Part shown: piece by piece, positions 4,807-45,759 of the stretch
How the letters are laid out: every line of letters begins with the position of its first letter
Position numbering within the stretch: position 1 is the stretch's first letter
Assembly (NCBI GenBank): GCA_011369465.1
Contig: DRQG01000142.1
Span: 1 to 64,000, forward strand
Length of the DNA stretch: 64,000 nucleotides
DNA from: Caldithrix abyssi
GTDB taxonomy: Bacteria; Calditrichota; Calditrichia; Calditrichales; Calditrichaceae
Direction: 5' to 3'
The notes under the pieces: generated by a model
What the model was told of the DNA's origin: nothing
The model's input: only the letters and a program-made list of their open reading frames with translations
Database searches by the model: none
Program-made: the position numbers and the translations under genes

Positions 4807-4966
4807 GCTGGCGGGATTATCACCCGGGAATTGGACGGTGGATGAGCGTGGATCCGCTGGCAAGTAAATATACATCATATTCACCATATAATTACACACT
4901 AAATAATCCTATCAATGCAGTTGATCCCGATGGTAGAGGTGTTATTAAGTTTTTTGTAAGGAACGT

Positions 4967-4973
4967 AAAAAAG
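4967..4973 (+). other. A-AAA-AAG slippery heptamer at the second Rhs frame break
   Basis: In the frame that encodes the core, codons read GTA AAA AAG, which places the heptamer A_AAA_AAG in the exact phase used for -1 frameshifting in dnaX and IS3-type transposases. A -1 slip here joins the core to the toxin frame. Only a weak stem (GTAC/GTAC) follows within 30 nt. It may be a chance homopolymer deletion site instead. Confidence 0.4.
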
Positions 4974-5539
4974 TTTGCATTAAAGCAAATAGAAGTACGG
5001 CAGTACGTTTTTATGCTAATAAAAAGTACGTATTAGTAAAAGGACGCGGTTCTTCAAAAGCCGCTATGAAATTAGCAAAAGACGCTAGGAAAGGTAAAAA
5101 AATAGTAAGGAATGATGGGCATAAATTAAAGAACGGTAAAACAGGAATGCCCCATTATCAGACGGCATCTGGTGACGGATCGCATGTGTTTTATAAAGTA
5201 TTATCTGTACTGGCGGGTATAAATCTTGGCGAACTCATCGGAGAATTAAATCCACTTCATGGTGGCACTGGCTTAGGATATGGGCAAGGTTTCGGTAATG
5301 AAGGAGAAGATATAGATCAAGATGGTATCCCTGATATTGATGACGTCATTGATAATAGAATCGATCCAGAAACAGGTGATATCATAGATCCTGAATCAGG
5401 TGAAGTAGTTGGAAATGTCAATGATGATCAAAATCAAGATGACCAAAGTCAGAATAATACTGAAAATCAGCAAGACGAAAAAAATGAACTATAACAATAG
5501 CTTTGATAATAGCAAATAATAAATATGATAGGCTGAAAA

Positions 5540-41880: not shown

Positions 41881-42180
41881 TTGTTTTTAGGCAAAGTGGT
41901 CGGTTCGGTCTGGTCAACCAAAAAAATTGACAATCTTACCAATTTAAAATTTCTGATCATTCATCCTATCAATCTGAAAAAAGCGCCGTTAACCGATGTG
42001 GTGATCGCCGCCGATGTATTGGGCGCCGGCGTGGGTGAAACGGTGATTTGCGCATACGGACATGCAGCGCGTCAGGCCATCTACCCGGAAAATCCGGCCT
42101 CTCTTAGTATCGAAGCGGCCGTTGTGGGCATTGTGGATCGGATGGATGTGGACCCGGAATGGATGGAGGATGAAAGTTAA
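41881..42180 (+). CDS. EutN/CcmL family bacterial microcompartment vertex protein
   Basis: A 99-residue protein. TTG 41881 with AAAGGAAG 7 nt upstream gives the family's usual N-terminus (FLGKVVGSVWSTKKIDNL); an upstream in-frame start at 41845 is unlikely. Motifs of the pentameric vertex proteins are all visible: LKFLIIHPINL, VVIAADVLGAGVGETVICAYG near 45-65, AARQAIYP, and AAVVGIVDRMDV near the end. Such pentamers cap the corners of protein-shelled organelles made mostly of BMC-domain hexamers. No hexamer gene, signature enzyme or activating enzyme is within the 64 kb, so this copy is solitary. It may serve a remote locus or have another role. Confidence 0.9.
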   Translation: MFLGKVVGSVWSTKKIDNLTNLKFLIIHPINLKKAPLTDVVIAADVLGAGVGETVICAYGHAARQAIYPENPASLSIEAAVVGIVDRMDVDPEWMEDES

Positions 42181-42521
42181 AAATGTATCGCAAGATTTAT
42201 CTTGCGTTAAGTACATAGTACTTAGTACAAAGTACAGAGTAGTAAGTGACGCGTGACGTGTGAATAGAAAATGGAAATTGGAAATTGGGAACGGGTACCA
42301 AATCACGAATCATGCAATTACGAATTACGAATTAGAGGCTGACAGCTGAGAGCTGAAGGCCGAAAGCTATTTAGCAACTGATAACCAAAAGCCAATAGCC
42401 AATAGCTAAAAGCTAACAGCTAACAGCCAATTCAATAACTTAATAACTGATAACTTTCGAAACGAAGCGAAGAACCCGCCGTGGCGGGGATAACTGATAA
42501 CTTTTAAATCCGGGAAACAAA
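42181..42521. repeat. Gene-free gap of degenerate short tandem repeats
   Basis: No gene is supported. The sequence is built of short drifting repeats: TACATAGTACTTAGTACAA, GGAAATTGGAAATTGGGAA, CAATTACGAATTACGAATTA, then AGCTGAGAGCTGAAGGC, AGCCAATAGCCAATAGCTAA and AACTTAATAACTGATAACTT. A hairpin CGCAAGAT/ATCTTGCG lies near 42190. Such AATTACG and AGCTGA/AGCCAAT patterns resemble the short tandem repeats of some cyanobacteria, but this copy is not that lineage's. Confidence 0.7.
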
Positions 42522-42971
42522 ATGGCCGAATTAAGCGAACAGGATATACGCCGCCTGACCGAAGAGGCGCTTAAACAATTGGGCGCCGAGGCAACCCCGC
42601 AAAATGTGGAAAAAGTGGTGCGCCAGGCGGTTCACCGTGTTGAGACTGAAGTTCCCGCCGGGACGCAGCAGGTACAGCCGATTCCTCAACCGGGTAAAGG
42701 GAATCGTATCATTATCACTGCCTTCGGGAAAAACCAGATCGGTATTCTGGCAGCGCTTACCGGTGTACTGGCCGAAAACCGATGCGACATCATCGATTTG
42801 TCCCAAAAAGTATTGCAGGAATTTTTTACTATTATGCTGCTGGTGGACATTTCCGGTTGTAGTAAGGATTTTGAAGCCATCAAAGAAGCCGTTGTCCGCG
42901 AAGGCGAAAAACTGGACCTGAAAGTGATTATCCAGCACGAAGAAATCTTTAACGCCATGCACAGGGTATAG
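42522..42971 (+). CDS. ACT domain protein (UPF0237-like) with N-terminal extension
   Basis: A 149-residue protein. The first ~60 residues are a charged, helical extension ending in a Pro/Gln linker ([11 protein letters not shown]). Residues ~62-149 form a single ACT domain: [49 protein letters not shown] and [17 protein letters not shown]. The ACT part alone matches the usual length of UPF0237 proteins; the N-terminal extension is extra. The stop precedes the UPF0210 gene by 2 nt, and this pairing is conserved in many bacteria and archaea. ACT domains usually bind amino acids, so it may sense one for its partner. Confidence 0.88.
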
Positions 42972-42973
42972 CC

Positions 42974-44338
42974 ATGCCGATTGCTTTGGAAGAAATTCTC
43001 GAAACCATCCGCATGACCGAAGTGGAGCATTTTGATATCCGCACGGTTACTATGGGCATTAACCTTAAAGATTGCAGCAGCGATTCTTTGGCCGGTCTCA
43101 AAAAAAATATATATGATAAAATCATGCGTGTGGCTTCGGAACATGTGGCCACAGCCCGTAAAGTGGAATCCGAATTCGGTATTTCCATCGCCAATAAACG
43201 TATTTCGGTTACACCTGTTTCCATCGCCGCCGACGGCTTTTATGCCGAAGATTATGTGGAAATAGCCCAGGTACTGGACAAAGCCGCCGACGAGCTGGGG
43301 GTGGATTACCTGGGCGGTTTTTCGGCACTGGTGCAAAAAGGTTTTACGATGGGTGAACGCAACCTGATACAGGCTATCCCGGAAGCGTTGTCGCAAACCA
43401 AGCATGTGTGTTCTTCCATAAATGTGGCCAGCAGTAAAGCGGGGATCAACATGGACGCCGTGCGTTTGATGGGCGAGATTGTTAAACAAACGGCCGAAAA
43501 AACAGCCGACCGCGACGCTATCGGCTGTGCTAAATTGGTGGTGTTTGCCAATGTACCCGAAGATAACCCCTTTATCGCCGGGGCATTCCACGGCGTATCC
43601 GAACCCGATGTGGTGATTAATGTAGGCATAAGCGGACCGGGCGTGATTTTACGGGCCGTGCGGGAAGCCCCGCAAAATATGAATTTTGCCGAACTGAGCG
43701 ACCGTATCCGGCGTATGGCTTTCAAAATAACCCGGGCCGGAGAATTTATCGGCCGTACCGTGGCTGCTTTGCAAAATGTACCTTTTGGCATTGTGGATAT
43801 ATCCCTGGCCCCCACACCCATGCCGGGCGACAGTGTGGCGGACATTTTAAAAGCGATGGGTCTGGAAGACGTGGGCGCTTCGGGAACAACGGCAGCGCTG
43901 GCGCTTCTGAACGATTCCGTAAAACGCGGCGGTTTGATGGCCTCGTCCCATGTGGGCGGAATGAGCGGCGCATTTATTCCCGTTTCGGAAGACGACGGTA
44001 TGATTAAAGCCGCTCAAAAAGGGCACATCACCATTGATAAGCTGGAAGCCATGACCAGCGTATGCAGTGTCGGTCTCGATATGATCGCCATTCCGGGCGA
44101 TACACCCGCATCGGTTATTGCCGGTATGATCGCCGACGAATGTGCCATTGGCATCAGCAATAATAAAACTACGGCCGTGCGGGTGATTCCCGTACCGGGT
44201 AAAAAAGTGGGCGATGTGGTTGACTACGGCGGGCTGCTTGGACTGGCCCCTGTTATGCCGGTTTCCTCCTTGAATAACGCGATGTTCATCAATCGGGGCG
44301 GCCGTTTCCCGGCGCCCACCAGAGGCGTAAATAACTAA
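42974..44338 (+). CDS. UPF0210 (PFL-type, DUF711) family protein
   Basis: A 454-residue soluble protein that matches the conserved family through its whole length. Characteristic stretches are [18 protein letters not shown] near 20-37, [18 protein letters not shown] near 157-174, [14 protein letters not shown] near 216-229, and [16 protein letters not shown] near 278-293, with [19 protein letters not shown] later. The fold is distantly related to the glycyl radical/PFL superfamily by structure, but no radical Gly signature is obvious and the function is not established. It follows the ACT protein by 2 nt, so the two form a co-expressed pair. The repeat-filled gap after its stop contains no gene. 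Confidence 0.92.
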
Positions 44339-44889
44339 AAAAGAAAAATGGGCAAAGGAATGGAATGAATTGATGAATCAATGAATTGTTGAATTAGTGG
44401 ATAATTGGAGTGTTGGAGTAATGGAGTGATGGATTGATAATAAAAACCATTACTCAATCCACTCTAAAAAGGGTGCTGCGAATAAAATGTCATTCTGAAC
44501 CCTGGCCTGACGCCAGGACAGGCTCGTTTCAGCATCTTATGTTTATGGCAAGGGATTCCGGAACAAGTCCGGAATGACGCCAAAAGTGGGAATGACGCCA
44601 AAAGTCATGCTGAACTTGTTTCAACATCTTGTGTTTATGGCAAGGGATTCCGAAACAAGTTCGGAATGACACCAAAAGTGGGAATGACGCCAAAAGTCAT
44701 GCTGAACTTGTTTCAGCATCCCATGTTTTATGGGGCAGGATTCCGGAACAAGTCCGGAATGATTTCTACAAACTTTTTAGAGTGGACTCATTACTCCATC
44801 ACTCCGATACTCCAATCACAGGCACAATCGCACCAATTCATCAATTCATACCATTTCTCCGTTTCACCAACAATATTGTGATTTTGTCT
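44339..44889. repeat. Composite repeat block with converging arms
   Basis: No gene is supported in these ~550 bases. The left part (44355-44445) has GAATTGATGAAT and TTGGAGTGTTGGAGTAATGG; the right part (44775-44862) has the reverse complement of the same words (ACTCCATCACTCC, ATTCATCAATTCA). ATCCACTCTAAAAA (44457-44470) is matched by TTTTTAGAGTGGA (44776-44788). The block thus has inverted ends around the 92-bp tandem repeat described next. Confidence 0.75.
44541..44770. repeat. 92-bp tandem repeat, two and a half units
   Basis: The word GTTTATGGCAAGGGATTCC begins at 44541 and 44633, and a diverged copy begins at 44725, giving an exact 92-bp period. Each unit holds an inverted repeat of the ATTCCGGAACAAGTCCGGAAT kind and CATGCTGAACTTGTTTCAGC. 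The motif resembles a widespread repeat family of this bacterial group. It creates a false in-frame extension of the nitrilase gene. Confidence 0.8.
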
Positions 44890-45759
44890 ATGGCTGAAAT
44901 TAAACAAAAAATCCGCATTGCTACCGTGCAGGTAGGCAACGTACTGGCCAATGTGGAAAAGAATTTGAATAAACACTATGAGTACATCGAAAAGGCCATT
45001 GCCGACGGTGCGGATGTGGTGGTTTTTCCCGAGCTTTCCATAACGGGATATTCTCTTAAAGACGCTGTGTATGATGTGGCTTTGACCATCGATGACCGGC
45101 GATTTGACAGGCTGAAGGAGCTGAGTAAAAAAGTGAGTATCCTCATCGGGGCAGTGGAACTGAATGAGCGTTTCGAAATCTATAACAGCGCTTTGTGGTT
45201 CGAAGACGGCCGTCTGCTCACCCGTCATCGAAAGGTCTATTTGCCGACCTACGGTTTGTTCGAGGAAAAACGCTATTTCAGCGCCGGCAACCGTTTTCGC
45301 GCATTCGACAGCAAATTAGGGCGCTTCGGATTGCTGATCTGCGAAGATATGTGGCATCCCACCTCGGGTATAATTCTGGCACAGGACGGCGCTTCCGTAA
45401 TTTTTGTGATGTCGGCCGGTATCGCCCGCGGCATTGGCGGAGACGACAAACCGCAGAATATCCGCATTTGGGAAACGCTGAATGTGGCCCTGGCCGTCAG
45501 TACCACTTCTTTTATTGTTTTCGTAAACCGCGTGGGTGTGGAAGACGGACTGATGTTCTGGGGCGGTTCGGAAGTGATTGATCCGCACGGCGATCGCATA
45601 ACCAAAACCGAATATTTTCAGGAAGGGTATCATCTGGCGGAAATCGATTTACTCAAACTTAAACATGCCCGCATCAATACCACCCTGCTCAGCGATGAAA
45701 AACTGAATGTTTTAATTGAAGAGTTCGATCGAATCGAGAAACAACGAAGAGAGTATTAG
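44890..45759 (+). CDS. Carbon-nitrogen hydrolase (nitrilase family), NAD synthetase glutaminase-like
   Basis: A 289-residue enzyme. ATG 44890 is the true start; the frame is open from 44629 only because the repeat block lacks stops. The catalytic triad is complete: Glu48 in VVFPELSITGYS, Lys115 in RHRKVYLPTYGLF and Cys151 in GLLICEDMWHP. The style (FPELSITGYSLKDAVYD, FSAGNRFRAFD) is closest to the N-terminal glutaminase domain of glutamine-dependent NAD+ synthetase, but no synthetase domain follows, so this is a stand-alone amidase. It may hydrolyse glutamine or another amide. The regulator-like gene starts 4 nt after its stop, and accB follows that. Confidence 0.9.
   Translation: MAEIKQKIRIATVQVGNVLANVEKNLNKHYEYIEKAIADGADVVVFPELSITGYSLKDAVYDVALTIDDRRFDRLKELSKKVSILIGAVELNERFEIYNSALWFEDGRLLTRHRKVYLPTYGLFEEKRYFSAGNRFRAFDSKLGRFGLLICEDMWHPTSGIILAQDGASVIFVMSAGIARGIGGDDKPQNIRIWETLNVALAVSTTSFIVFVNRVGVEDGLMFWGGSEVIDPHGDRITKTEYFQEGYHLAEIDLLKLKHARINTTLLSDEKLNVLIEEFDRIEKQRREY

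Follow-up and report, generated by a model that had tools for sequence, protein, structure and literature searches.

The window, a stretch of 64,000 nucleotides on contig C142 of a Calditrichota MAG (4.31 Mb, 161 contigs, 98.5% complete), carries on its forward strand an open reading frame for a microcompartment vertex protein (EutN/CcmL, BMC-P), which opens with a TTG start at 41881 and whose stop codon ends at 42180. The 99-residue product matches PF03319 in Pfam with 81.8 bits (E=5.1e-23), above the curated cut-off of 25 bits for this vertex family, and its closest solved structures are CcmL/EutN/BMC-P pentamers; reading frame, domain and structural relatives all agree with the preliminary description, which had recognised here a complete EutN/CcmL gene with a TTG start. 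Downstream, on the same strand, lie a gene for a UPF0237-type ACT-domain protein (42522..42971, 149 aa; PF13740 with E=1.3e-15, NF001220, structure 1zpv), in which 61 residues precede an ACT domain at residues 62-148, and, after 2 bp, a gene for UPF0210/DUF711 (42974..44338, 454 aa; PF05167 with E=1.8e-185, structure 2ha9 with E=3e-156), elsewhere annotated as 'PFL family protein'. A carbon-nitrogen hydrolase gene (44797..45759, forward strand; PF00795) is kept as the downstream neighbour in most Calditrichia; it is probably a housekeeping gene standing outside the EutN-ACT-UPF0210 module.

The EutN and ACT genes are separated by 341 bp (42181..42521) that consist of degenerate tandem arrays, for the most part with a 7-bp period, in keeping with the repeat-filled gap described earlier between the vertex gene and the pair. 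The gap comprises six or more distinct degenerate arrays of short period, five of them with 7-bp units (e.g. AGTACAT, AATTACG, ATAGCCA). Among the scored relatives the corresponding gap is at most 177 bp and mostly below 70 bp, none of those examined being as long as that of the window; hence EutN, ACT and UPF0210 form a tight operon in the relatives, and the 341-bp gap is a local insertion particular to the window genome. An element acting at the DNA or RNA level was considered for the gap and rejected, for the gap has no Rfam match and promoter and terminator scans of it gave results at chance level; it is repeat filler.

The vertex gene is not solitary, as had been supposed, for the genome encodes four PF03319 proteins. 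Two of the others are in tandem (C2:8411 and C2:8683) beside deoB, identified as a phosphopentomutase gene by two equivalog models, and the third (C107:13044) adjoins deoC and a pyrimidine-nucleoside phosphorylase gene. In the phylogenetic tree the window EutN falls into its own clade, separate from these three paralogues (support 100/97), with an ordinary end branch; it is 73-88% identical to its orthologues, a conservation about equal to that of UPF0210, and is the dedicated fourth vertex paralogue of the lineage. In three relatives (L065 of G005, L075 of G007, and G012:C375) the other three vertex paralogues form one tandem triplet; the window genome has the same three split between the deoB and the deoC locus.

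As to the shell itself, the preliminary description had found no BMC hexamer gene in the 64 kb and had proposed a search of the remaining genome for BMC-domain genes. Both the observation and its extension hold: PF00936 (BMC shell) genes are absent from the entire assembly. Likewise, a concatenated core-enzyme query recovered no BMC-type aldehyde dehydrogenase, phosphotransacetylase (PTA), EutJ or RnfC from this genome; its only matches were a housekeeping coaD-pta, a true Rnf, ParA and other aldehyde dehydrogenase paralogues. The 14 other genomes of the family all have PF00936 genes, and vertex genes, usually four, occur in 13 of them. The PF00936 genes of these relatives reside mostly in one remote cluster, with two BMC-H and two BMC-T genes together with a ParA-like ATPase, a EutQ-like small protein, PTA, an aldehyde dehydrogenase, a EutJ-like and a PduS/RnfC-like protein. 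In the loci examined, this cluster includes no vertex gene, the vertex genes being located elsewhere; it is this very arrangement, a shell locus without its own vertex gene, that had been named beforehand as speaking against an independent vertex, and it favours the earlier suggestion that the vertex caps a remote shell. In one family member (G014:C401, L095; 89% complete), PF00936 is present, and the vertex gene and UPF0210 are absent from the assembly.

Satellite loci (Axen 2014) are those whose shell genes are all PF03319 or all PF00936, and the window locus is of the former kind. Satellites are also expected to accompany a main BMC locus in the same genome; here PF00936 is absent from the assembly, and in the relatives, which have it, the core cluster lacks BMC-P, so that not even they possess a classical main locus. 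Since the relatives combine four vertex genes with a remote, vertex-free cluster, the window EutN is probably a satellite vertex, and the metabolosome it would belong to is a dispersed one of the SPU type (DeoC/RpiB).

The SPU (sugar-phosphate utilisation) microcompartments are defined by DeoC (pfam01791) and RpiB (pfam02502), and their suggested substrates are the products of DNA degradation (Sutter et al. 2021, PMC8217296). In the window genome, deoC adjoins a vertex gene at C107, and its product, like its orthologues, starts with an EP-like helix (MTAITPQVIEQIISQVVAEANL), as would suit a compartment-linked aldolase; RpiB is encoded in three copies. The BMC-type aldehyde dehydrogenase and the shell hexamers that also characterise the type are present in the relatives and missing from the window assembly; this supports SPU membership of the relatives, which would presumably extend to the window genome. 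DeoC, RpiB, aldehyde dehydrogenase and BMC-H/T/P are common to SPU and the present system, which differs in two respects: its shell cluster includes neither DeoC, RpiB, DeoB and nucleoside phosphorylase nor any of the vertex genes, and a fourth vertex paralogue pairs with ACT-UPF0210. The second RpiB copy (L231, G000:C118:60935-61591) has about 65 extra N-terminal residues that resemble the EutQ-like protein of the shell cluster; this segment is kept in all six genomes examined, and the plain RpiB copy lacks it. The distribution of shell genes over several loci, with vertex-only satellites, recalls the FRAG and satellite loci described previously (Sutter 2021; Axen 2014, PMC4207490), yet FRAG types were described without an obvious signature enzyme, whereas the satellites here carry deoC and deoB. 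The MIC-type locus of Caldithrix abyssi was reported to have AldDH, a pta-type PTAC and PduS and no apparent signature enzyme (Axen 2014, PMC4207490). Its AldDH/PTAC/PduS core is the same as in the relatives studied here, and the signature enzyme missing there would be supplied by the satellite deoC, whose product starts in an EP-like manner, and by the RpiB copy headed by a EutQ-like segment.

The ACT-UPF0210 pair had been described as a conserved one beside the vertex gene, and comparison of the neighbourhood in relatives had been proposed as a check. The order is indeed kept, contrary to what a non-conserved neighbourhood would give, and well beyond the original proposal. UPF0210 is found in 20 of the 40 Calditrichota genomes sampled, all 20 of which have vertex genes, and is missing from all 11 vertex-free ones, a co-occurrence that partly follows phylogeny, for the 20 genomes are mostly from two families. 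The order in the Calditrichota loci read is EutN-ACT-UPF0210, with RnfC and BMC-T placed between EutN and ACT in a sister genome (G024; L059/L153). When 84,980 species genomes were scanned with a motif of the window-type EutN, 67 loci emerged, in which ACT (56/67) and UPF0210 (47/67) are same-strand downstream neighbours, and shell genes lie nearby in 29 of the 50 loci of non-Calditrichota type; having been found by the EutN motif, these loci are a biased sample of vertex genes, in which co-location with ACT and UPF0210 was not selected for. Other phyla with the trio, frequently placed within shell loci, include Neomarinimicrobiota, Delongbacteria, Zixibacteria, Acidobacteria and Gemmatimonadota: the order is BMC-H, aldehyde dehydrogenase, EutN, ACT, UPF0210 and often BMC-H in Acidobacteria, and BMC-H, EutN, RnfC, BMC-T, ACT, UPF0210 in Zixibacteria. 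In a Neomarinimicrobiota locus (L157), the gene after EutN-ACT encodes a pyrimidine-nucleoside phosphorylase. UPF0210 is also common among organisms without microcompartments; its core function therefore needs none.

A peculiar feature of the vertex-linked ACT proteins is their N-terminal extension, which measures 45-105 aa in nearly all those of the 56 vertex-linked loci. The exceptions are L199, whose ACT is probably truncated, and L185, a microcompartment locus where (4954-5496) an RnfC N-terminal fragment runs in frame into the ACT domain in what looks like a fusion or a decay product. Stand-alone ACT-UPF0210 pairs of Listeria, Enterococcus, Peptoclostridium, Monoglobus, Limosilactobacillus, Aerococcus and Neisseria, drawn from a plasmid collection and mostly Firmicutes, have ACT proteins of 87-90 aa with no extension, and the 91-aa 1zpv of S. 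pneumoniae lacks one too. The pneumococcal pair SP0238-SP0239 (1zpv, 2ha9) is homologous over the entire ACT domain and the entire UPF0210, and unlike the window ACT it has no extension; we know of no vertex partner for it. Encapsulated cargo is typically recognised by an amphipathic helix of 15-20 residues joined through a flexible linker to a terminus of the protein. The window extension (residues 6-42, 42537..42647, forward strand) is predicted to form two helices followed by a low-confidence linker: the AlphaFold model places helices at 6-23 and 26-42, with pLDDT below 50 in the linker and above 95 in the ACT domain, and the helical moment is 0.41 (p=0.017 against shuffles). Relative to shuffles, the moment is similar to this in most Calditrichota and weak in other phyla, so that the argument for a tag leans on the presence or absence of the extension and on its position more than on amphipathicity. 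The extensions open with motifs such as LNEQEIRKIAEEAVRQLG, similar to the N-terminus of the compartment's aldehyde dehydrogenase, MSLSSQEIAQIVNSVLTKLE; judged from sequence and model, the ACT extension resembles an encapsulation peptide.

UPF0210 itself carries no extension. The family is conserved from archaea to pathogens and has a solved structure (2ha9); to our knowledge, it has no known function. Cys146 and Cys364 are invariant across the aligned set, and the invariant, enzyme-like residues are also found in the microcompartment-free homologues, with a mean column identity of 72%. The structural tie to glycyl radical enzymes put forward in the preliminary description stands with regard to the fold, ECOD grouping both in a ten-stranded barrel (PMC4390871), and falls with regard to the domain: the sole Pfam match of UPF0210 is DUF711, with no glycyl-radical domain, and no activase gene is found among the window neighbours examined, so that it lacks both the C-terminal glycyl radical domain and the activase by which such enzymes are recognised.

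Taken as a whole, a dispersed SPU-type metabolosome, with the window EutN as one of its four vertices and ACT-UPF0210 as encapsulated cargo, is the probable reading of the locus. The compartment would have four pentameric vertex proteins, the window EutN among them; the genes of this compartment would be scattered over the chromosome, and it would break down deoxyribonucleosides: pyrimidine-nucleoside phosphorylase and DeoB would lead to deoxyribose-5-phosphate, an encapsulated aldehyde dehydrogenase would yield acetyl-CoA, and PTA would turn this into acetyl-phosphate, the PduS/RnfC-like protein and the shell proteins being encoded by the separate cluster. The EutN gene would form an operon with ACT and UPF0210, and the encapsulation-peptide-like N-terminus of ACT may carry ACT and a coupled UPF0210 into the shell interior, where UPF0210 would act as a ligand-regulated accessory enzyme. 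I thus infer that ACT-UPF0210 is a cargo module of the microcompartment. Whether the same holds in general is evenly poised: the pair would then be an enzyme module, encapsulated and regulated by a ligand, of a widespread microcompartment class (in Calditrichota a deoxyribonucleoside-degrading one), accompanied in several phyla by a vertex paralogue of its own.

The dispersed metabolosome presupposes that the cell possesses a shell cluster, and the absence of PF00936 and of the core enzymes from an assembly 98.5% complete, together with the occupation of the site beside the M14 peptidase gene by other genes, could instead mean that this lineage truly lost its hexamers and trimers, its vertex proteins being free pentamers with another task or recent relics. 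The earlier suggestion of a shell-free vertex with another task, for which the PF00936 absence from one MAG is the sole ground, gained no positive support. The M14 gene adjoins the shell cluster in several relatives and lies at C34 beside unrelated genes in the window genome; as it is also away from the shell cluster in G005, G007, G012 and G014, its adjacency is not general and M14 synteny did not tell loss from an assembly gap. What is missing is the cluster as a whole, which contains similar tandem BMC-H genes, and the contigs of several relatives' drafts end in or near it; every other family genome kept its shell genes, and the window EutN shows the identity and the end branch of an ordinary orthologue. 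The vertex genes, all four of them, are intact and conserved, as are the tagged DeoC and the extended ACT; for this reason, and because relatives' contigs end in or near the cluster, a shell cluster on an unassembled contig is likelier than its loss, which I regard as unlikely.

Even granted a remote shell capped by the vertex, ACT-UPF0210 might be a cytosolic pair co-regulated with the compartment through operon history and not its cargo; many bacteria and archaea have UPF0210 and ACT without microcompartments, UPF0210 bears no extension of its own, and two adjacent genes, nadD and that of the carbon-nitrogen hydrolase, seem to serve housekeeping. This is somewhat unlikely, for the ACT extension occurs in vertex-gene loci and in none of the examined stand-alone pairs, and the pair lies within shell loci of several phyla. 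The extension might also be a tether by which UPF0210 is held at the shell or the vertex, there to serve in assembly or regulation and not as a lumenal enzyme, as the dedicated vertex paralogue partnering the pair and the presence of two helices rather than one would allow; however, the retention in UPF0210 of the enzyme-like invariant residues shared with microcompartment-free homologues speaks against a tether, which is decidedly improbable.

If the cargo reading is true, the microcompartment would be the first functional context for UPF0210, a fold relative of ribonucleotide reductase and pyruvate formate-lyase; no literature naming DUF711, UPF0210 or pfam05167 together with microcompartments was found, and the supplementary locus diagrams of the 2021 catalogue may already show pfam05167 unnamed. 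The vertex operon, the location in shell loci of several phyla and the encapsulation-like ACT tag make UPF0210 a testable cargo, and candidates for the signature enzymes that the Caldithrix-type metabolosome seemed to lack come from the dispersed DeoB/DeoC/RpiB satellites. As a matter of method, a lone vertex gene of a draft genome can point to cargo.

Tandem repeats also occur at other points of these loci. In one relative (G005, L237, 2658-3909), repeats of about 184 bp encoding ERSRR-type peptides lie directly upstream of a PGM-deoC satellite locus. In the window, a 92-bp repeat (44526-44762; 2.6 copies, 88%) lies between the UPF0210 and carbon-nitrogen hydrolase genes; owing to it, the mechanical ORF start (44629) is misleading, the true start of the hydrolase being probably later, near 44880.
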